A stretch of 64,000 nt of DNA from Xanthostigma xanthostigma. Lineage: Eukaryota > Arthropoda > Insecta > Raphidioptera > Raphidiidae. The stretch lies in NCBI GenBank assembly GCA_963575645.1, contig OY754465.1, positions 35,971,501-36,035,500 on the forward strand, read 5' to 3'. The notes beneath the pieces are model-generated. The model worked only from the letters and a program-made list of their open reading frames with translations. It did no database searches and was not told where the DNA came from. This document shows, in pieces, positions 5,119 to 63,582 of the stretch (position 1 is its first letter; each line of letters begins with the position of its first letter). The position numbers were made by a program, and so were the translations under genes.

Positions 5119-6153
5119 TATTAGGCTAGACGGCGAGGAGGTAAAAACATTAAAAAGTGTATTATTCGGGCACAGGCGAGATTATTGTTGGAATCGCTTC
5201 GTTTTAGGGTGTAGTTCAACCCCCTAAGTTTGCTTACAAATTGTTGTGCTTGATTTTATAATTAACAATTAGTGACGAAAATAGTGTTTTTTTCTCTTTT
5301 TCCTTAAATATCTTCGTTCCTCTTGACTTTTAGTATAGCATATGCATTGAAAAAGTTGTTCCTTATGAAATTTCCTAAAAAATGAGCACTGACAGAGGTC
5401 GCTAAGTGCAATAATTGTTAACTTGCAAATAGCCCCGAATTTTTGGAAAAAATTAATTCTAACCGATTTTATAACGATTGAATATTGGAAAAGTTATATG
5501 GTTTTATACGTTTGTCTAAAATTGGTATCGCTAAAGAAACCGTTATAAAATAGGTTAGAAATAATTTTTTCCAAAAATTCCAACGGGATACTAAAGTTGA
5601 ATGGATTTGTGATTTTTCTGGCTTGGTCCGACCAGCGAAATCCGTTTGTGAAAAAAATGGCGCAATTTGCATTTAAGGAAACAAAAAAAGTGATTGTTAA
5701 TTACTCGAGAAGTAGTTGACCGATGACGCTAAAATTATTCATGCATGTTTGGGTCAACATAGACATCATTTTTCAGAAATTTCAGTCATCTATGTGCGGT
5801 CATTTTTTATTAAAAAAATAGTGAAAAAACGTGTTTTTTTAACTTTCGGGGCTATTTGCAAGTTAAAAATTGAACTTAGCGACCTCTGTCAGTGCTCATT
5901 TTTTAGGAAATTTCATAAGGAACAACTTTCTCAATGCATATGCTATACTAAAAGTCAAGAGGAACGGAGATATTAAAGGAAATAGAGAAAAAAACACTAT
6001 TTTCGTCAATAATTGTTTATTATAAAATCAAGCACACCAACAATTTGTAAGCAAACTTAGGGGGTTGAACTACACCCTAAAACGAAGCGATTACAACAAT
6101 AATCTCGCCTGTGCCCGAAAAATACACCCAAAACTCCTCGCCGTTTAGCCTAT
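5119..6153. mobile_element. Long-TIR foldback element with nested palindrome
   Basis: The left arm (about 5119-5445) and right arm (about 5842-6153) are reverse complements at roughly 93% identity over some 320 bp by eye. Both hold GGGCACAGGCGAGATTATTG and AATGAGCACTGACAGAGGTC. The roughly 400-bp middle carries a second inverted pair, 5443-5480 against 5543-5583. The frames at 5469-5672 (-) and 5716-5976 (+) lie inside and look like by-products. No transposase was recognised, so the element is probably non-autonomous. Confidence 0.8.
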
Positions 6154-6595: not shown

Positions 6596-7076
6596 TAAAA
6601 CTTTTTAACAAAAAAATTAAACCGCCGAAAAACTGAAAAGCAAAAAATAATAAATCTTTTTATTTAACTAAGTTCTATCTGAGTAGTTGAACGTATGTGA
6701 AAGTCTAGTATATCTAAGTAATTTTGAGTCGGCGTCAACAATCCTTCGCCGGAAATCTCTGAGCGTTCACGAAGTTAATATGAGCGACAGAGCAACCCTA
6801 ACGGGCACACGTCTTTGCGAGTGGTCGTGTGGAGAGCGCATGTTTAATGTTAATGTTTATCGCTGGAGATTTCACGTATCATTGTTAATTTGATTTGATT
6901 ATTTCTTTTAGTGATCTTTGTTCATTGATGGTTTGACGCCGACTCAAAATTACTTAGATATACTAGACTTTCACATACGTTCAACTACTCAGATAGAACT
7001 TAGTTAAATAAAAAGATTTATTATTTTTTGCTTTTCAGTTTTTCGGCGGTTTAATTTTTTTGTTAAAAAGTTTTTA
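6596..7076. mobile_element. Foldback element with ~146-bp arms
   Basis: The arms at 6596-6741 and 6931-7076 match almost perfectly and both include TTGAGTCGGCGTCAA or its complement. The 189-bp loop is slightly more GC-rich and holds a frame of 68 codons (6687-6893) that runs into the arm, so it is unlikely to be a gene. Near-identity of the arms suggests recent origin or correction. Confidence 0.8.
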
Positions 7077-11548: not shown

Positions 11549-12441
11549 TTAACTTCCCGCTTTAAAAAAAAAAAAAAAATTTTTTTTTCAAAAATCGGGA
11601 AGTTATTGGTTTCACCCCGATTTTCGAAAATCGAGTTTTCGCCAGATCTCGACGTTTTGTGTGTGACGTGTGTGTGTATGTATGTATGTAAACCTTTTAT
11701 ATCTTTTGAACGGAGTGTCCGACTGAAACGCGGTTTGCGGCATCTGACGTGATCTTGGTGAACTTAGACTTCCTGAAAATTTGAAACGATTCGGCCCAAA
11801 AAATTTTGAGAAATCTTAAAAAAACAAGTTTCAAAAATTTTTAAAAATTTGTTTTTGTAAAATATTTTCTAAACTACTAAACCGAATAATTCCAAAATCT
11901 AATCAGCTCTTCTCCTTAACAAACTGCGTCGATTTCCGCAAACCGCATCAAAATCGGTTCATTTGTTCACGAGATACCGTGAACGAAAAAATCGTAAAAA
12001 AGTGTTTTTTTAAAATGACTCTTAAAATTGTTATCAGATCGATTTTTTTGTAATAAATTACTTTCTCAGGCTAAAAAAACTGCGTCGATTGCCGCAAACC
12101 AAATCAAAATTGGTTCATTTGTTCATGAGATAACGTGAACGAAAAATTAGGAAAAAAGTAATTTTTTATAATTACTCGTAAAATTCTTATCAAACCGATT
12201 TTTTTGTAATAATTTACTTTCTTAGGTTAAAAAATTGTGTCGACTGCGGCAAATCGCATCAAAATCGGTTCATTTGTTCATGAGATATCGTGAACGAAAA
12301 TTTCGTAACAGTGTTTTTTTTTTTGAGCTCGAAGAGCTAAAAAATAAACTTCTTGCTATATTTTATTTTTGAGCGTTTTGAACTCGAAAATAGCGGGAAG
12401 TTACAGGGATGGCCTGCAGGGTCAAACTTCTTTTCAAATTT
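11549..12441 (+). repeat. Dispersed repeat family A, full copy with 3 monomers
   Basis: It opens AACTTCCCGCTTTAAAA and closes AAAATAGCGGGAAGTTACAG, so its near-terminal sequences are inverted. Three internal monomers of about 155 bp are marked by TTCATTTGTTCA at about 11957, 12112 and 12268. Each holds a small hairpin of the type GTTCACGAGATACCGTGAAC. The frame at 11489-11752 runs into it and is not a gene. No transposase or reverse transcriptase is encoded. Confidence 0.8.
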
Positions 12442-28859: not shown

Positions 28860-30090
28860 AACCTTTTATATCTTTTGAACGGAGTGTCCGACTGAAACGC
28901 GGTTTGCGGCATCTGACGTGATCTTGGTGAACTTAGACTTCCTGAAAATTTGAAACGATTCGGCCCAAAAAAATTTGAGAAATCTTAAAAAAACAAGTTT
29001 CAAAAATTTTTAAAAATTTGTTTTTGTAAAATATTTTCTAAACTACTAAACCGAATAATTCCAAAATCTAATCAGCTCTTCTCCTTAACAAACTGCGTCG
29101 ATTTCCGCAAACCGCATCAAAATCGGTTCATTTGTTCACGAGATACCGTGAACGAAAAAATCGTAAAAAAGTGTTTTTTTAAAATGATTCTTAAAATTGT
29201 TATCAGATCGATTTTTTTGTAATAAATTACTTTCTTAGGCTAAAAAAACTGCGTCGATCGCCGCAAACCAGATCAAAATTGGTTCATTTGTTCATGAGAT
29301 AACGTGAACGAAAAATTAGGAGAAAAGTAATTTTTTATAATTACTCGTAAAATTCTTATCAAATCGATTTTTTTGTAATAATTTACTTTCTTAGGTTAAA
29401 AAAACTGCGTCGATCGCCGCAAACCAGATCAAAATTGGTTCATTTGTTCATGAGATAACGTGAACGAAAAATTAGGAAAAAAGTAATTTTTTATAATTAG
29501 TAATTACTCGTAAAATTCTTATCAAATCGATTTTTTTGTAATAATTTACTTTTTTAAGTTAAAAAAACTGCGTCGATCGCCGCAAACCAGATCAAAATTG
29601 GTTCATTTGTTCATGAGATAACGTGAACGAAAAATTAGGAAAAAAGTAATTTTTTATAATTACTCGTAAAATTCTTATCAAATCGATTTTTTTGTAATAA
29701 TTTACTTTTTTAAGTTAAAAAAACTGCGTCGATCGCCGCAAACCAGATCAAAATTGGTTCATTTGTTCATGAGATATCGTGAACGAAAAATTTGTAAAAA
29801 AGTGTTTTTTTTAAATTGCTCGTAAAATTCCTATGAGATCGATTTTTCTGTAATAAATTACTTTTTAAGGATAAAAAATTGAGTCGACTGCCGCAAATCG
29901 CATCAAAATCGGTTCATTTGTTCATGAGATATAGTGAACGAAAATTTCGTAACAAATTGTTTTTTTTTTGAGCTCGAAGAGCTAAAAAATAAACTTCTTG
30001 CCATATTTTATATATTTTTGAGCGTTTTGAACTCGAAAATAGCGGGAAGTTACAGGGATGGCCTGCAGGGTCAAACTTCTTTTCAAATTT
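28641..30090 (+). repeat. Dispersed repeat family A, expanded copy with 6 monomers
   Basis: It has the same start (AACTTCCCGCTTTAAAA) and end (GCGGGAAGTTACAGGGATGG) as the copy at 11549, but six TTCATTTGTTCA-bearing monomers at about 29127, 29282, 29438, 29602, 29759 and 29912. Monomers 2-5 share GCGTCGATCGCCGCAAACCA and look like an expansion of one unit. A (TG)n tract lies at 28812-28846. All reading frames across it follow the repeat and are not genes. Confidence 0.85.
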
Positions 30091-31283: not shown

Positions 31284-33577
31284 GTATTAAAAAAGAGACA
31301 ATTATTCTATGGCAATTGGCAACCATACCAATGGTTATGTTTACATAGTTTTTGACGTCACACTACGGTCTAATCAATAGAATTGCGTTTCGATATTTTA
31401 TATTTCGCGCGTATTTATTGCATTTTTGTTTTAATATTTATTATTTAGCAAAAATTTAAAAAGAAAAAACTATTTAGAGTTTAATCAATTGCAATAAAGA
31501 TTACAAAAAATAATATTTGAACTAAATGTAAGATACATGCATAGCTATATCCAATTGTTAATCTAATTTTTAATAGATTCATAAACAATTTGAATATAAA
31601 ATACCGTTACGTTTATAAACAAGGAATATTTAAACATATATTTTGACAATGATTACGTAGGTGCAGAACCCAAAAAACCAGTCAACGTTCCCCAACCTTG
31701 AACACCATAAGGTGTGGCAATCTAGCAAATGAACAGTGGACATCTGACACAATATAGGTATAAGACAAAAGGTAAGGAATATTAATTAATTGAAAAATAC
31801 AAAACAAAGAGTACACCTCAATTATCAGATATATTTATAACCGTTACAAATTATAATATTATTGACAACAGTAAATTATGGATGTGTTTATTATTTTCAC
31901 AGCAATAAGTAATAATATATCTGTTTCAATACTATAAAAATCAAGTTAATAAAATTTAAATTTTGAAATTATTTTATTTATGGTTATTTAAAATTAATTT
32001 TCAAATACAGTATTTCAATAATAATAATTATTATCATTCTCATTATATTAAAACTGGACAGTGGAGTACCAAATGACTAATTACATATAGTTGAATGAAG
32101 TGTAGCTTACAGATGCACTAAACAGCTGTGGTCATCAGCGTCACTTAGTTGCCAAATAAGTAATACGTTCTGTTTTCCCAATAACTGACTTAAGTTTACC
32201 ACTCTTTTATTTTTATCAACCGACTTCAAAAAAAGGAGGTTATTATGTCCGGCACTTATATTTTATTTTTTTATGTATGTTCAGCCATAACTTTTCGAAT
32301 GCTTAAACGGTTTGAAAAATTTCGACGCCATTTTGTTTAGAATGTTTCCGGATTGGTACCATAATTTTTTTATAAAAATCGGTACAGTCGTTTTTAACTG
32401 CCATCAAAAAAGAATATTTTTTAAATATATTTTACCTTATACCTCTAGCATTAATTGTGAATCGATTTTGATGATTTTTTTCTAATAGAGCATCTACATA
32501 TTATTGCGAGCCGCAAAAAAGTAAAAAAATAAAAAAACTTTTAATTGAATCTTCTTCAAAAAAGTCACTAAAGCGCAAAAATTTTTGACGTTCACGTCAA
32601 TGGATGCGGATTAGAAATATTATTATTTTTATTAAGAAAGTCCTAATTTTCATTACACCTTCATAATCCAGGATTGGTAAAGAGTATTGAAAGAACAGTA
32701 ACATTGCAGCTTTTTCAGGACTAATTCTCATAAGCTATGTATTTAAAGAGAGCTTGTGCACGCATCCAGTGCCCGCCCCGCCTCCAATAATCTTATGTCA
32801 TGACTTAAATTGCATCTGCATTCGCAAAAGTTCCGCAACAACAGTTGCGGATGTGGATGCAGATGTCAAAAATTATGTGAATGCACCGCGGTGGTGAATA
32901 TTGACATCTGCAACATTCTTAAATTAAAACATAATAGCATTGCGGCTCCCTAACTAAAGCTTGACGGCTCCCTAGGCGACCACGGTTCGTGCATTGAGGA
33001 GCACTGATTTAGACGATTACAATTATTATTCAACTAGCAAAGCAGGAAAAGAAAACGTCAAACGATGGTGTTTATATAATAGATTAAGATCAAGAAGATT
33101 GATATTGATCAAATTGACGATGACAAAATGATAAATGGATGACATAATGATCGAAGAGTGCCTTGAACTCACTTGTCACTATACACATCTATATTAGCAT
33201 AATTTATTATCGATGCACTTACTTTAAATTATACCTATCAAGTCAGATGTTATGTCTTAATAGGGTCGTGCGTACTGTGTAACAAATTTTGCGCCTTGGG
33301 CGCACTATAGTTACCTTTCATTCATGTTGGGTTTGGTTTGTCGCAGTCATTCTTAAATAAAGCTTGGTATATCAGTTGCATCGTATGATCCCAAATCCGT
33401 TTATATTATATCTGTTCTACCCAGCTTCGCCCGAATGAAGCTTAAAATGTCAGAGGTTCGCTCATTGCTCATTCTAAATATCGACAGTGTTTCGGAAAAC
33501 CCACTCTTTCGTCGTAAGAAGACTATTTTTCCCTAGTATCACGATTTCAGTATCAGTCATGTCATATTTCGAGTTCA
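31284..33577. other. Intergenic DNA with RTE-like remnant
   Basis: At 32218-32420 the sequence CAACCGACTTCAAAAAAAGG and what follows is the reverse-oriented type of the tail seen at 7500-7550. The remainder is AT-rich and unassigned. No gene was seen. Confidence 0.45.
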
Positions 33578-33581
33578 TTAA

Positions 33582-34000
33582 GAGTATTCGTCCCTGCAAA
33601 TACCCCCTGCACCCTTCATCTCAAATCTTTTCCCCTCGCCTAAAAACGGTTCGCGCTCTCCCGACGCTATTTTTAAAGCTAGAGGGTTCTGGTAAACGCC
33701 AAATGAAAGACAAAGAATCAGACTACAGATCCTTCAGGCGAATTTTTTCAAAAACAGTTTCACCTACGTGTGAAATATTACGTAACTTATTATTTTTTTC
33801 AAAAGGTTGTAAGTTTTTTCAGGAATTTTTTTCAAAAAATTCGCCTGAAGGATATGTTGTCTGATTCTTTGTCTTTCATTTGGCGTTTACCAGAACCCTC
33901 TAGCTTTAAAAATAGCGTCGGCAGAGCGCGAACCGTTTTTAGGCGAGGGGAAAAGATTTGAGATGAAGGGTGCAGGGGGTATTTGCAGGGACGAATACTC
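33582..34000. mobile_element. TTAA-flanked 419-bp MITE, copy 1
   Basis: The ends GAGTATTCGTCCCTGCAAAT and ATTTGCAGGGACGAATACTC are exact inverted copies. The arms run about 180 bp, including GACGCTATTTTTAAAGCTAG. TTAA lies on both sides (33578-33581 and 34001-34004). A second copy of the same length is at 41770-42188. The long frame at 33487-33864 is created by the repeat and is not a gene. Confidence 0.9.
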
Positions 34001-34004
34001 TTAA

Positions 34005-34645
34005 TCAGGCAGTTTCGGATAAAGTCTGTTTTTCCATTCTAATATTTCATTACTTAGGTGGCTCCTTTTACAAAAATACTTAGGTCTGAATGCGTTTATC
34101 CTAAGAGGAAAATGTTTAAATTTTTTATCTTTTCTTTAATAGATGCATGCCACTTTATACGCATTCTCAAAAAAAGTGTTTACAGTGCTGCTCTCGCTGT
34201 CACTACCATGAAACAACCTAAATCTAGCAAAGCCTGTATCATGTAAATATTAACCTCTTTCTTTATTCTTATTGAATAAGTACTACTGGACACAATGCCA
34301 ACTTTCGATTTCTTCACAATATATCGAACGTGATTTGTAAGAATAATGAAATACATCATAGATTTGACATAACATTGATTACAGAAGCAAGGACGTTACT
34401 TCAATAATGCTATTAACCTAATTCAAAACGAGAAATATTTAAATATTCAGAAGATGGTGAACCGACTGCCTCAAAGAAATTATGTTTTTGTAAAGTTGTA
34501 CTGACAATTTAATACACTGAAAATTAGTTGCTGCTATTTTCTTCATTTCCCGTGGGGGTCAAACTTAATATGAAAGATACGTAATAAAGTAACCAATATC
34601 GGAAACAAGACCATATACAGGCCACTATAAAATATATATACATTA
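34005..34645. other. Unassigned intergenic DNA
   Basis: The plus frame at 34058-34246 begins with GTG and has no recognised family. Nothing else was seen. Confidence 0.4.
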
Positions 34646-41765: not shown

Positions 41766-41769
41766 TTAA

Positions 41770-42188
41770 GAGTATTTGTCCCTGCAAATACCCCCTGCAC
41801 CCTTCATATCAAATCTTTTCCCCTCGCCTAAAAACGGTTCGCGCTCTCCCGACGCTATTTTTAAAGCTAGAGGGTTCTGGTAAACGCCAAATGAAAGACA
41901 AAGAATCAGACTACAGATCCTTCAGGCGAATTTTTTGAAAAAAATTCCTGAAAAAACTTACAATCTTTCGAAAAAAATAATAAGCTACGTAATATTTCAC
42001 ACGTAGGCGAAACTGTTTTTCAAAAAATTCGCCTGAAGGATCTGTAGTCTGATTCTTTGTCTTTCATTTGGCGTTTACCAGAACCCTCTAACTTTAAAAA
42101 TAGCGTCGGGAGAGCGCGAACCGTTTTTAGGCGAGGGGAAAAGATTTGGGATGAAGGGTGCAGGGGGTATTTGCAGGGACGAATACTC
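41770..42188. mobile_element. TTAA-flanked 419-bp MITE, copy 2
   Basis: It has the same ends, length and internal order as the copy at 33582-34000, with a few substitutions (GAGTATTTG at the left end). TTAA lies on both sides (41766-41769 and 42189-42192). The central part differs most from copy 1. Confidence 0.9.
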
Positions 42189-42238
42189 TTAAGACGCTTG
42201 TATGACCACGCATGCAAAGGCTAGTAAACAATTAGTCA

Positions 42239-42613: not shown

Positions 42614-42628
42614 TTCACTTTTTAGTTT

Positions 42629-43135
42629 GAGGATCTATAAAAGAATTTATTAATCCTGGGGGTCCTAATAAGGATAATGGGAAACTGTTATCAAATTATT
42701 GCATTGTCATCGGTCCTTGATACGTATGCAAAGTTTCAAATTAATCTGAGGATCTATAAAAGAATTTATTAATCCTGGGGGTCCTAATAAGGATAATGGG
42801 AAACTGTTATCAAATTATTGCATTGTCATCGGTCCTTGATACGTATGCAAAGTTTCAAATTAATCAGACTTCGGGAAATTGGTGAAAATAAAGCGTTTAC
42901 TACAGAGGATCTATAAAAGAATTTATTAATCCTGGGGGTCCTAATAAGGATAATGGGAAACTGTTATCAAATTATTGCATTGTCATCGGTCCTTGATACG
43001 TATGCAAAGTTTCAAATTAATCAGACTTCGGGAAATTGGTGAAAATTATGCTCAAAGATTCCGTTACGGAGTTAGTTACATACATACATACATATTTACA
43101 ACCCAAACTAATATAAAGCGTATAAAAAAAAAAAA
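42629..43135 (+). repeat. Three identical copies of a 118-bp LINE-like 3' unit
   Basis: The unit starts GAGGATCTATAAAAGAATTT at 42629, 42748 and 42905 and ends GCAAAGTTTCAAATTAATC. I see no differences among the three. Copies 2 and 3 continue with AGACTTCGGGAAATTGGTG. Copy 3 runs on into TTCCGTTACGGAGTTAGTTA, then ACATACATACATAC and an A-rich end, which is a non-LTR 3' terminus. Copies 1 and 2 abut at a 119-bp period, and copy 3 follows after 157 bp. Confidence 0.85.
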
Positions 43136-44206: not shown

Positions 44207-44877
44207 CAAGAAGTTTATTTTTTACCTACGACGGAACGACGAAGGTATATGCGTTTAGCCTGAAAGATTTTTTGTTTGTTTGTTAGTTTGTTGTGCACTC
44301 GAATGTCGCCATTTATCTGGAAAACGGTTTGATCAATTCAGATGCGGTTTTCTGTAAAGGGTTTGTAATTCATCTGCGATGGTTCTTATATAGATATTAC
44401 GATGGTAACGCCCCAGGGGGCGCTAACTGCACAAAAAAATAATCGCAAAAACCATAACAAACGTGCTACGCACGAACAGATCTAACAAGCGTCCGTTACT
44501 AGTGCTTTTTACAGCATTACACTTGTACATTTATTAAAAACACAATTATTATGAGCACTCTCGCACATAACGCGATTCAACAGCTATAGGCTATCAGATA
44601 TAGCTACACTGTGTACGCTGGTTCGGGTAGAGTGCTCGACCATCTGAACACACTTATAAAATCTCTAAAAAGTTTGAAATAAATTAAAATTGAAAATTTT
44701 GAAAACACCTATGGCGAATGTAAATGTTGTAATAGAAAAAAAATTAAATAAAATTCTAAAATCCCCGACTAACGCAGGTAAGTAACCAAAGAAAATCTGC
44801 CGGGGGCTGCAATTCGCTGCCCTGAAGATTAGAATAATATAAATTAGACTACAGTTATTTACGTACCAAACTCAAAA
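44207..44877. other. Unassigned repeat-like DNA
   Basis: The stretch contains GGTAACGCCCCAGGGGGCGC near 44405 and the motif CGTGCTACGCACG, which have the look of a degraded element. No gene was seen. Confidence 0.4.
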
Positions 44878-45270
44878 AAAAAACACTTTCATACGAATTT
44901 TTCGTTCTCGATATTTCGTGAACAAATGAAGCGATTTCGATGCGGTTGGCGGCAATCGACGCAGTTTTTTTAACTTAAGAAAGTATTTTTTTTAATTACT
45001 CTTAAAATTCCTATCAGATCGATTTTTTTCAATAAAATACTTTTTAGGTTAAAAAAGCTGCGTTGACTGTCGCAAACAGCATCAAAATCGGTTCATTTGT
45101 TCACGAGATATCGTTAACGAAAAATTCGTAAGAAAGTGTTTTTTTTTTGAGCTCGAAGCGCTAAAAAATTAACTTCTAACTATATTTTATATATTTTTGA
45201 GCGTTTTGAACTCGAAAATAGCGGGAAGTTTCAGGGATGGCCTGCAGGGTCAAACTTCCTTTCAAATGTA
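44878..45270. repeat. Family A copy with an internal inversion
   Basis: The first monomer (44880-44985) is in minus orientation (GTGAACAAATGAAGCG, GGCAATCGACGCAG). The next parts, from about 44990 on, are in plus orientation (CGGTTCATTTGTTCACGAG) and end with the family's GCGGGAAGTTTCAGGG. This is a rearranged copy. Confidence 0.7.
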
Positions 45271-45840
45271 TTTTTATTTAATTTGTCATTTTCCATTAGT
45301 CTAAGACTATATCACACAAAAATAAGAATTGAGTTTTTTGGCGAAAATCAACACTTTTCCCATAATAATCCCCATAGCGTTTTTTTTTTTTTTTTTGACA
45401 AAATTAGAAAATTTCTCATAACCTTTTCAAATTCGGTATGGTTATAGAAATCGACGCGCCGATTTCAATGAGCCCACCCATTGCGCTCTATCCACTTACC
45501 GTTCCGAAGATAAACGCACATTCGAATTGATTTTCTGGAAAGTCTAGAGTAAATATCGGATTCGGGTACATTCCAAATTTCGTGTACTGACAGAAAACGA
45601 CATTCTAAATTCAAAGATCACACCGAGGTCTATAATACCTATTTCCATTTCGAAGATAGAGCCTTTCAAAAAAATTGCATAAATTTAAAAGAGCTTTAAA
45701 TGGTTACAGATCATAAACTAAAACCTGAGCTTATTTTTTGATTTAATTTGTCATTTTCTGTTAGTCCAATGTTGTTTAGGCCGTTCAGAAACAAAAAACG
45801 TGTTTTGGTTTTTGTGAAAAACCGATGTTTTCCCTATAGT

Positions 45841-60067: not shown

Positions 60068-60404
60068 CTTTCTGTCCTCGTTTCCTGAGCCTAGCCTGCA
60101 TTTTGGGCGTTCGTGTCTGTAAATAATTGTGGACCACGTCGAAATCTTGAAACGGTGGAAACACAGATTCCGGAGGTAGTGGACTCTTCACTAAGAACTT
60201 CAACTTTCTCGAATTCGTCAGCAGTCGATCGCCGGTGTCTATGCCGATCTTCTGACACACGCATTCGATCATTCTGTTCATTTTGGTCTCAAAATCGGTC
60301 GAGTTGTCTATAACATCGAAATACGGATGTCCGACCCATGCTGCTGCTGCGTTGTAATCCAATTCGCGGGCTAATTCGACGCCTTCAGAACGACAAACGT
60401 GGTC
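60068..60404 (-). CDS. Ttd14: TTD14 orthologue, exon spanning the end of the P-loop domain
   Basis: The exon starts after acceptor AAATTTCAG with [16 protein letters not shown], continues [20 protein letters not shown] and [17 protein letters not shown], then [32 protein letters not shown] and ends RLRKRGQKG at donor AAAG|GTATGC (phase 1). The R.E...A..LD...W.GHP....IDN...F..K pattern is the end of the NadR/TTD14-type AAA (P-loop) domain. The [14 protein letters not shown] segment starts the second, CYTH-like half. Residue-for-residue resemblance to fly TTD14 is high. An open frame continues a short way past the donor in this phase (to 60009), but splicing at 60068 is needed to join the next conserved block. 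Confidence 0.96.
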
Positions 60405-61375
60405 CTGAAATTTCGTAAAACTAATTAAAATTTACATACTTAGCAGGTTACGCAATTTTTGCGAACTCTGCGGGTTTATCAGTGCAAAACTACTTCAGCA
60501 TTTTGTTAAAGCTTTCACTTAGATCTAGACACGCGGCAGCGTGTCAAGCCCAGTTCAACAAAGAAACAGGAAGCAGCAGCCGTGTGTTATATTACAAGAA
60601 CCATTTGGAGGCACTTTTAACCCCTTAATAACTCAAAATCTATTTATCATAAACACATGAAATTTGGTTTTTTTATTAAAACCCCTTAGATTAACTAGAA
60701 TCCCAAATTTCATAAATACAGCTTAAACGGTTAATGAGATATTAACGTCTAAAAATCGGAAACTTTTATTCTATCGCCCCGAATTTTTCTGGCCGTCTGT
60801 TGCATGTCGCATTACAGGCGGCCGCGGAGTAGGGGTAAAGTGAAAGGCCAATATGGCGGCGTCCATGGTTAGCATCAGCTGACCGTGTAGTATGTATAAC
60901 ACATAGTCAGTCTGTCATGCGGGCAAGTGCTGTACAGTGTTCACATGTTTTATTCGTGTATTCATGTGAATATTGTTGTTTATAATTAATCGTGATGGAT
61001 AAGTGTCTACAATCCAACGCCTACAATCCAACAAAAGTTTCACTTGCGTCGAGGTTTCTTAAAACCACACAACTGTTTTTTATCACTGACTGACTGACTC
61101 ACTCACTGACAAATAGATCAAAAACCTAACCCACTTCCAGATAACCTAAAAAGTTGAAATTTGGCGTCCAGCTAGGTAATTGTGTGTATGCAAAGGACAC
61201 AAATCCGAAAACAGCGAATTTTTAAGATTTGAAATATTTTCCAAGCATTCGATTTTTATTAGCACCTAGTGCCTTTCGAAAAAGAAAACTATAGATACTT
61301 ACAGAAAAAAAGATTAATTTTGCAAGTCACTTTTGAATGACAAATAATAATCTTTACAAAATTTAATGATAGCCT

Positions 61376-61593
61376 ATCAAAAACATAAATGTGAAAAAGG
61401 GAGCCAAGTTCAATATTCGATACAAAAAGAATTGAAATCTAAAAGGGTACACATATAAACATGAAGTTTAGGTATAAATCATAATATAAAACACGAAAAA
61501 TTGCGAAGTGAAAACTTGGCACCTTTTTAGATCTCAATTCTTTTTTAATTGAATATTGATCTTGGCTCCCTTTTTCACATTTACGTTTTTGAT
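61376..61593. mobile_element. Inverted-repeat element, ~75-bp arms, in a TTD14 intron
   Basis: The arms ATCAAAAACATAAATGTGAA to GAAATCTAAAAGGGT pair with the right side (CACATTTACGTTTTTGAT end) with small indels. The loop is about 65 bp. The minus frame at 61534-61728 begins outside it and is not considered a gene. Confidence 0.75.
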
Positions 61594-61793
61594 GGGATAT
61601 ACAAAATACTCGAGAAATTCGTCAGAAAAAATTAAGAGATAGGTAGCATTAAAGGCTGGTAACACATCAGTACTGTAGGTAATATATAAACATGAAACGA
61701 TGTTTTTGTTATTAGTCAATAATGCCAAAGCTGCTGAAGCGATTTGAAAAAGTCTTTCGCTGGTTAGACTACTTCTTCCCGATTAACATAGTA

Positions 61794-62779
61794 GCTGCAG
61801 AAAATGTGTCGTCATAAGGTGGACGAACGAAAAAATTAGAGATGATAGTTAAGACCATAATTAAGAAAGATCGCTAAGGTTGCCTGCGAAAATCCTGCCG
61901 AAACAATGTTTTTTTAATTTGTTTACAGTTAATAGACCAGTGAAGTAAGCTTTTGACAAGGACAAAATTAATAACAGAAAACGAATGATGAGGAAGGGAA
62001 GAAACTGCCGTCAGAAATACAGAAACCAAAAATTCAAATGCGTAAAAGGCCGGAGGGCTGTGGGGGTGCATTTTAGGGGTCAAACGCGGTTTTTCGTTAT
62101 TTCCGGCGAAAGTTGACCTCCAATCGAAAAATGTTGTTTGGCAATGTTGTAGGTATTAAAAGGATCTGCAACTTTTATGAAAATAACTTTTTCACATAAC
62201 CTTAAAGATTCAAAGAAATATTGAAAAAAACGTGTTTTTCGTTTTTAATTTTTTTTCTCCTGCAAATTACAGTTTATTTAGGACATAGAGAGGTAAGTCT
62301 CCTGAAAATTTCATGAAAAAAAAATTAAAAACGAAAAACACGTTTTTTTCAATATTTCTTTGAATCTTTAAGGTTATGTGAAAAAGTTATTTTCATAAAA
62401 GTTGCAGATCCTTTTAATACCTACAACATTGCCAAACAACATTTTTCGATTGGAGGTCAACTTTCGCCGGAAATAACGAAAAACCGCGTTTGACCCCTAA
62501 AATGCACCCCCACAGCCCTCCGGCCTTTTACGCATTTGAATTTTTGGTTTCTGTATTTCTGACGGCAGTTTCTTCCCTTCCTCATCATTCGTTTTCTGTT
62601 ATTAATTTTGTCCTTGTCAAAAGCTTACTTCACTGGTCTATTAACTGTAAACAAATTAAAAAAACATTGTTTCGGCAGGATTTTCGCAGGCAACCTTAGC
62701 GATCTTTCTTAATTATGGTCTTAACTATCATCTCTAATTTTTTCGTTCGTCCACCTTATGACGACACATTTTCTGCAGC
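61794..62779. repeat. Long inverted repeat, two ~464-bp arms, 57-bp spacer
   Basis: The left arm 61794-62257 and right arm 62316-62779 are reverse complements with no difference that I could find in the parts compared. Outer ends are GCTGCAGAAAATGTGTCGTC and its complement; inner ends are the T-rich/A-rich tract next to AACACGTTTTT. The two mirror frames (61874-62083 minus and 62490-62699 plus) encode exactly the same 69 residues. These are a result of symmetry, not evidence of a gene. The spacer contains CAGTTTATTTAGGACATAG. It sits inside a TTD14 intron. Confidence 0.92.
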
Positions 62780-62945
62780 CGTCTCTTGGACTATAGGATG
62801 TGCACCAAAACGGAGATAAGCGGTGAGGGAACATACTAGCGACATGAAAAGTTGCCATTTTTGTTTATTCACGATACTTTGCAGCTAGAGTCAAAATACT
62901 AACATTCGACTAGTGACGTTTACGAATCTATGCTTATTCATAATG

Positions 62946-63345
62946 TAGTGGAATCTCAATAACTCGAATTTTAAGGGAAATGCTAAAAAGATCGAGTCAA
63001 TGAGTTTTGAACTTAAGAAGTATCTCGAGATATAAAGGATTTAATTACTAAAATTTCGACTTAGAAAAGCATAAATTATTTGATGTTAGTGTTATGAATT
63101 CGGGGAATTCCAATCATTATATTTTACTAACTTCGACTTACGGAGTCTACTTTATGAAATTTGAGTTGTAGAGTATCAATATATATTATCAATACCTCGC
63201 GGGGAAATAACATTTTGTTCGAGATACAGAGTCTAAATAATTCGAGGTACGGCGTATTTAGAGGTTCAACAAAAGGGAATAACAATTTTTATCGACTTAC
63301 TGATGGATACGACTTAACGCGATTCGAGTTATCGAGATTCCACTG
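62946..63345. mobile_element. pogo-like MITE in a TTD14 intron
   Basis: The left end TAGTGGAATCTCAATAACTC and the right end GAGTTATCGAGATTCCACTG are inverted copies. TA follows on the right (63346-63347) and TG, a mutated site, precedes on the left. The inner sequence carries further GAGTTATCGAG-like pieces. The plus frame at 63161-63421 runs over it and is not a gene. Related in type to the element at 20999-21473. Confidence 0.7.
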
Positions 63346-63445
63346 TATAAAACCTTCTAGCTGGAGCGAAAATTTAGTCTGGATCTCATTACGTTATTTA
63401 CATGCAACGTCGCGTAAATAATGCCTAGTAATAAAATTGACTTAC

Positions 63446-63582
63446 TTCAGTTGAATAAAACTGTTCAGCTCCGTTAGCCGCCGAAACCATGTGAACAATC
63501 TGATTGTAGCGATTGTCTCTTAATTCAACATTGTTCCAATTGTTGGCTGCCATCATCTGGTCCCATTTTTCTTTGGAAATAA
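63446..63582 (-). CDS. Ttd14: TTD14 orthologue, exon of the P-loop domain (first one in window)
   Basis: The exon begins after acceptor TTGACAG with two bases of a split codon and encodes [20 protein letters not shown], then [20 protein letters not shown] and FYSTE. It ends at a perfect donor, ACTGAA|GTAAGT, in phase 0. The block [22 protein letters not shown] is a hallmark of the TTD14 P-loop domain, and the next exon continues with DHVCRSEG as expected. The Walker A lysine loop and the true start lie upstream, to the right of 64000, so the gene is partial here. About 90-100 residues should be missing, judged from the fly protein's length of about 475. Confidence 0.95.

Follow-up and report, generated by a model that had tools for sequence, protein, structure and literature searches.

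In the 64,000-nt stretch of DNA analysed here (the window), an intron of a gene which we take to be TTD14 holds a long-armed foldback MITE, a type of non-autonomous DNA transposon, with a 3-bp target-site duplication (TSD). It belongs to a family of dispersed copies, and its two arms are identical to each other while both carry the same uncommon mutations. We consider it likely, with a probability of roughly 0.75, that this is an ordinary MITE in which one arm was copied onto the other in the element's own history.

Repeat detection in the window located the left arm at 61794-62256 (plus strand) and the right arm, its exact inverse, at 62317-62779 (minus strand). The arms are each 463 nt long, 100% complementary and separated by an asymmetric spacer of 60 nt (62257-62316, plus strand). 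A sequence-only reading of this DNA had described apparently identical arms of about 464 bp with a 57-bp gap; the identity stood, and the lengths were corrected to 463 and 60 nt. This pair was the longest of 47 inverted pairs detected in the window, which is rich in them: among the 25 pairs listed, ten had arms of at least 90 nt and a spacer below 1 kb. Chance cannot account for an inverted pair of 463 nt without a mismatch. The left arm showed 94-98% identity to the other full-length arms listed, and the spacer is common to other copies at 87-97%.

The full element extends from 61792 to 62793, with its true terminus beyond the limits given in the sequence-only reading. By the 3-bp TSD rule it is flanked by TAG on the left (61789-61791, letters checked) and by TAG on the right (62794-62796). 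The two ends are unequal. The right terminus is intact (62780-62793, TAGTCCAAGAGACG on the minus strand) and has 12 nt missing from the left, where the terminal TA (61792-61793) is present and the next 12 nt of the family terminus (GTCCAAGAGACG) are absent. Exact matches genome-wide to an end with these 12 nt gone, the terminal TA and the 3-bp duplication being retained, were found only at window position 61792 and at locus L028 (C2:51631258). The 100 bases to the left of the element had one full genomic occurrence and ten more partial ones at 79-88%.

We compared the arms at 76 loci (the window and L009-L083). Eleven dropped out because a spacer or arm could not be located, 27 of the remainder offered under 400 shared columns, and the other 38 were scored as two-armed. 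The sampling was non-random, as the first 20 and last 35 loci were chosen by likeness to the window arm or to the hairpin centre and the middle 20 mostly via paired ends on contigs C1 and C2. The window copy alone among the 38 had identical arms; in the other 37 the arm-to-arm identity was 84.0-97.6%, and the median of all 38 was 96.0%. Relative to the arm consensus the window copy had T133-, T155A, A346T, A376G, T390A and C438A in both arms and no difference confined to a single arm. The substitutions lie at 61947, 62138, 62168, 62182 and 62230, with the 1-nt deletion near 61925, and the mirror places of the substitutions are 62626, 62435, 62405, 62391 and 62343. C438A is common in the family, which leaves five uncommon variants that are mirrored and none that is unmirrored. 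The mirrored variants span at least columns 133-390, and the identity runs across all 463 nt.

In the arm pile-up, T133-, T155A and A346T each occurred elsewhere in one or two single arms, and A376G and T390A in none. Across the genome (623 Mb), the stretch with T133- and T155A had no match outside the two window arms when up to 1 mismatch was allowed, nor had A376G together with T390A at 0 mismatches; A376G without T390A occurred at 5 other genomic places and T390A without A376G at 1. The load of uncommon variants per arm in other copies was of the same order as the five of the window copy. The sequence-only reading had offered a very young foldback element as one alternative. As worded, this does not hold for a copy with five uncommon variants per arm; it is the match of the two arms with each other that appears recent. 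Independent mutation would not plausibly give five mirrored changes, a deletion among them, and none unmirrored. As all five are mirrored and none is unmirrored, arm copying is required, either here or in a parent copy.

In the reading we prefer, the MITE inserted into the TTD14 intron with a 3-bp target duplication, and its arms would then have paired within one strand as a hairpin or cruciform. Template switching in replication, or mismatch or gap repair (gene conversion), probably copied one arm from the other, so that both arms ended up with the same uncommon mutations. We infer both the place of the copying, the window locus rather than a parent copy, and its machinery. Against this reading, the published template-switch tracts are far shorter than 258 bp in the parts of those papers available to us. 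No site was found at which the left and right arms differ in a fixed way, which would have shown the direction of the copying.

The same identity might instead be youth: a recent jump of a perfectly palindromic parent that is now lost or unsampled. The variants are uncommon rather than each unique, which makes it conceivable that a parent had the full set of five in each arm, and A376G, standing alone at its 5 other places, indicates that some of the variants are standing in the family. Left-arm and right-arm frequencies stayed within 0.3 of each other at every site, from which the family founder looks palindromic; moreover, a cut-and-paste element need not leave a parent behind, and the TSD is intact. 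The five variants would still need mirroring under this account, however, which merely shifts the copying to the parent. The tested variant combinations occurred at no other place, and 12 terminal nucleotides are missing on the left. We regard such a parent as rather doubtful.

Mirrored variants were also found beyond the window copy. Among the 38 two-armed copies, 75 variants were common to both arms of a copy, against 24.2 ± 4.3 when the right arms were dealt anew (2000 times, maximum 40). With the window omitted, 69 shared variants were counted against 24.1 ± 4.2 in the shuffled pairings. A set of 53 copies whose arms shared 150 columns or more gave 58 uncommon mirrored columns and 888 unmirrored variants, where 1.6 mirrored columns were expected from a simple chance formula for substitutions only. 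Twelve of the 58 were in L046 and 8 in L033, largely columns of shared indels. Ten sites with common variants were also scored: five had at least 3 double carriers (F 0.34-0.69), two had one double carrier (F 0.28 and 0.36) and three had none. Mixed copies were frequent at these sites, 52 against 36 double carriers. A second foldback family in the window, with 1 mirrored difference in 9 variable columns, gave no replicate support. This general signal is inflated by hot spots of mutation and by subfamilies, and likeness to the window copy largely guided the choice of copies. Arm copying thus occurs in the family, but in most other copies the unmirrored uncommon variants greatly outnumber the mirrored ones, and copying on the whole-arm scale of the window copy is therefore rare.

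The strongest support for arm copying comes from the copy L046 (L084:4167-4834; C1 around 45609887-45610234). Its arms have a single internal deletion in common, and it lies in the middle of a palindrome reaching 160 bp into the flank on each side. This flank is an exact inverse match across the element; its other 35 genome matches are partial and less alike. The outer 3-mers are TGA on the left and TCA on the right, which are reverse complements, and a TSD is absent. We rejected the idea that the element had jumped into the middle of an existing palindrome, which would leave a duplication, whereas these 3-mers are reverse complements. Copying of the left flank, inverted, over the right flank would give what is seen. 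Three diverged matches start at query 16-17, outside the mirrored part, which starts at 28, and the left side is thereby weakly marked as the native one. We tentatively suggest, at rather less than even odds, that long hairpin MITEs are self-templating palindromes, in which the arms may copy each other again and again and the copying may overrun the end of the element, mirror the flank and seed growing palindromes. Under this suggestion, and just as tentatively, the window copy may be a whole-arm event and L046 an escape into the flank.

Homogenisation has been suggested for another foldback element, Tetris, where its authors propose it for the TIR repeats in two of the three complete copies (PMC4079207, in the part available). 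Template switching in which one arm serves as template for the other and perfects the repeat is described in the available parts of PMC8604942, PMC8794818 and PMC3820800. Published quasipalindrome correction differs from the present case in its short arms, the largest named being 59 bp in the accessible text of PMC8794818, whereas at least 258 columns are involved here. Arm-to-arm gene conversion is known in large palindromes and in inverted repeats of Caenorhabditis: the arms evolve in concert (PMC1803023, in part), and multi-kilobase conversion tracts are given for a Y palindrome (PMC3723533, in part). Unlike the dispersed transposon here, those concerted palindromes are single-locus and carry genes. 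The components, as far as the available parts of these sources go, are already known: MITEs, template switching at short repeats, concerted arms and the Tetris hint of foldback homogenisation. A literature search of partial coverage returned no case of a 463-nt perfect dispersed MITE with its own mirrored variants and a flank-mirroring sister copy. Arm identity is easily taken for youth. The two window arms match each other exactly, yet both depart from the other copies compared, which makes arm identity an unsafe clock. With hundreds of dispersed ends, the family offers many natural replicates in which arm copying and the growth of palindromes could be measured within an animal genome.

The sequence-only reading had proposed a search of the genome for other copies and their flanks, and the result bears out its foldback-element alternative as a family of dispersed copies with a TIR and a TSD. 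The arm as query gave 69 matches, which come from scoring 40 of 1073 first-look candidates. The outer terminal 18-mer occurred at 593 genomic places at up to 1 mismatch, and the reversed control at 0. The family TIR is TAGTCCAAGAGACGGCTGCAG, and other copies have the same order of arm, spacer and inverted arm. Partial arm loss is common, as 11 of 21 exact end pairs enclosed less than 900 bp; these 21 are the pairs that could be formed among the matches listed (C1 and the start of C2). Among 57 end pairs, exact TAGTCCAAGAGACG before GCTGCAG was present at 37 left and 48 right ends, and most others were 1-2 bases off. Of 37 distinct flank pairs, 31 had the same 3-mer beyond both ends and 0 had the same 4-mer, in a count of copies with unmutated ends. 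The 31 identical 3-mers comprised 14 TAA or TTA, 5 ATA and 12 others. For one host repeat, the empty site reconstructed by the 3-bp rule gave 52 matches with up to 2 mismatches allowed and 33 with up to 1; the control gave 0. With 3-bp duplications, empty sites and many dispersed copies, the family has been mobile. Coding capacity is absent: the longest stop-to-stop frame listed in the arms was 93 aa, and 4 frames inside the arms matched 0 Pfam families.

A Tc1/mariner element with TA duplication was considered and rejected. The TA is part of the element, which explains why 31 of 37 flank pairs had it at both ends, and the TA-based empty site had 0 matches at up to 1 mismatch. A search with PF01359 gave 19 genome matches, none tied to the family TIR; with the TSD corrected to 3 bp, this was the wrong transposase family to ask. 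PIF/Harbinger elements have a 3-bp TSD, typically TWA, and by analogy the 3-bp TSD here may point toward that superfamily. A matching Harbinger-type transposase would be flanked by the family terminus TAGTCCAAGAGACGG. Like PIF/Harbinger (Tourist-like) MITEs, the element is non-coding, about 1 kb or less, bounded by TIRs and high in copy number, with an A/T-rich 3-bp TSD in which TAA and TTA are common. Unlike them, it has TSDs beyond TWA, inverted repeats that span nearly the full length, and a terminal TAGTCC with no linked transposase and no autonomous partner found. Very long inverted arms and a short middle are shared with the foldback transposons (Drosophila FB, Galileo, Tetris). Drosophila Foldback (FB) has a 9-bp TSD and tandem-repeat arms, whereas the TSD here is 3 bp and no TRF tandem array was found within 61794-62779. 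No account of the family was found in a literature search of partial coverage.

Seven loci (L010, L011, L017, L018, L020, L021 and L027) had one full arm with the common outer flank TATCATTGAGAATTAA and a near-identical foreign inner sequence ending GGTAAATCCGCCACTG. Here the arm is apparently carried inside another amplified repeat, which looks hAT-like. At L036:167-1575 a family copy is split by an insertion of about 1.4 kb, by eye another foldback element.

The host intron is 3,041 nt long (60405-63445, minus strand, GT..AG). The exon upstream of it (63446-63582) and the first 330 nt of the next exon (60075-60404), both on the minus strand, are placed by splice and Pfam evidence; 63446-63582 and the sequence from 60404 downward splice in frame over the intron. 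These two exons together with an upstream exon from L091 matched Pfam AAA_28 (E 7.5e-8, passing the cut-off); without the L091 exon the match reached an E of only 0.047 and missed the cut-off. The TTD14 intron proposed in the sequence-only reading is supported, with the gene name itself a putative assignment. The AAA_28 match agrees with the P-loop domain of TTD14 in the available part of PMC4624897. The same intron holds two further inverted-repeat elements, one at 61369-61600 with 80-nt arms at 89% and one at 62947-63344 with 23-nt ends AGTGGAATCTCAATAACTCGAAT at 96%.

The minus-strand transcript of the stretch was predicted to form a single hairpin of -835 kcal/mol, as should be expected of any perfect inverted repeat this long. 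Transcription of TTD14 would join both arms in one RNA, and a long hairpin should form within the pre-mRNA. Effects of such double-stranded RNA on TTD14 through Dicer, ADAR or the spliceosome are possible, and the insertion is expected to be tolerated. That selection keeps the inverted repeat as an intronic source of hairpin RNA (siRNA) or as a regulator of TTD14 splicing would accord with this fold and with the pairing preserved by the mirrored variants. We think it very unlikely, since hundreds of family ends lie elsewhere, Rfam gave 0 matches in the window and copying without selection explains the mirrored variants, the 1-nt deletion included. Very unlikely as well is an assembly artefact, a second arm made by a fold-back read, as the sequence-only reading had raised, or by consensus collapse. 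It would suit 463 nt of perfect identity judged from the assembly alone, but both arms and the asymmetric spacer were found at 65 of the 76 loci compared, a TSD lies on both sides, and one end is 12 nt longer than the other. The same assembly also preserves arm divergence of 2.4-16% in the other 37 two-armed copies, and a fold-back read would mirror the window flanks rather than yield a shared asymmetric spacer, a TSD and unequal ends.

Other repeats were seen in the window. Two copies of another foldback element lie in opposite orientation at 33577-34005 and 41766-42192, with arms 98% identical in each copy. A perfect inverted pair (142 nt at 100%, 194 nt apart) is located at 6597-7074, and nested inverted pairs (98% and 95%) at 5157-6127 build up a foldback some 970 bp long. 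Short arrays or single pieces of a 156-bp repeat unit with GGTTCATTTGTTCATGAGATA, partly inverted, lie at 11915-12322, 29090-30017, 1-346 and 44836-45275. TRF also detected a tandem array at 42628-43051 with units of 119 and 157 bp and 100% matching.
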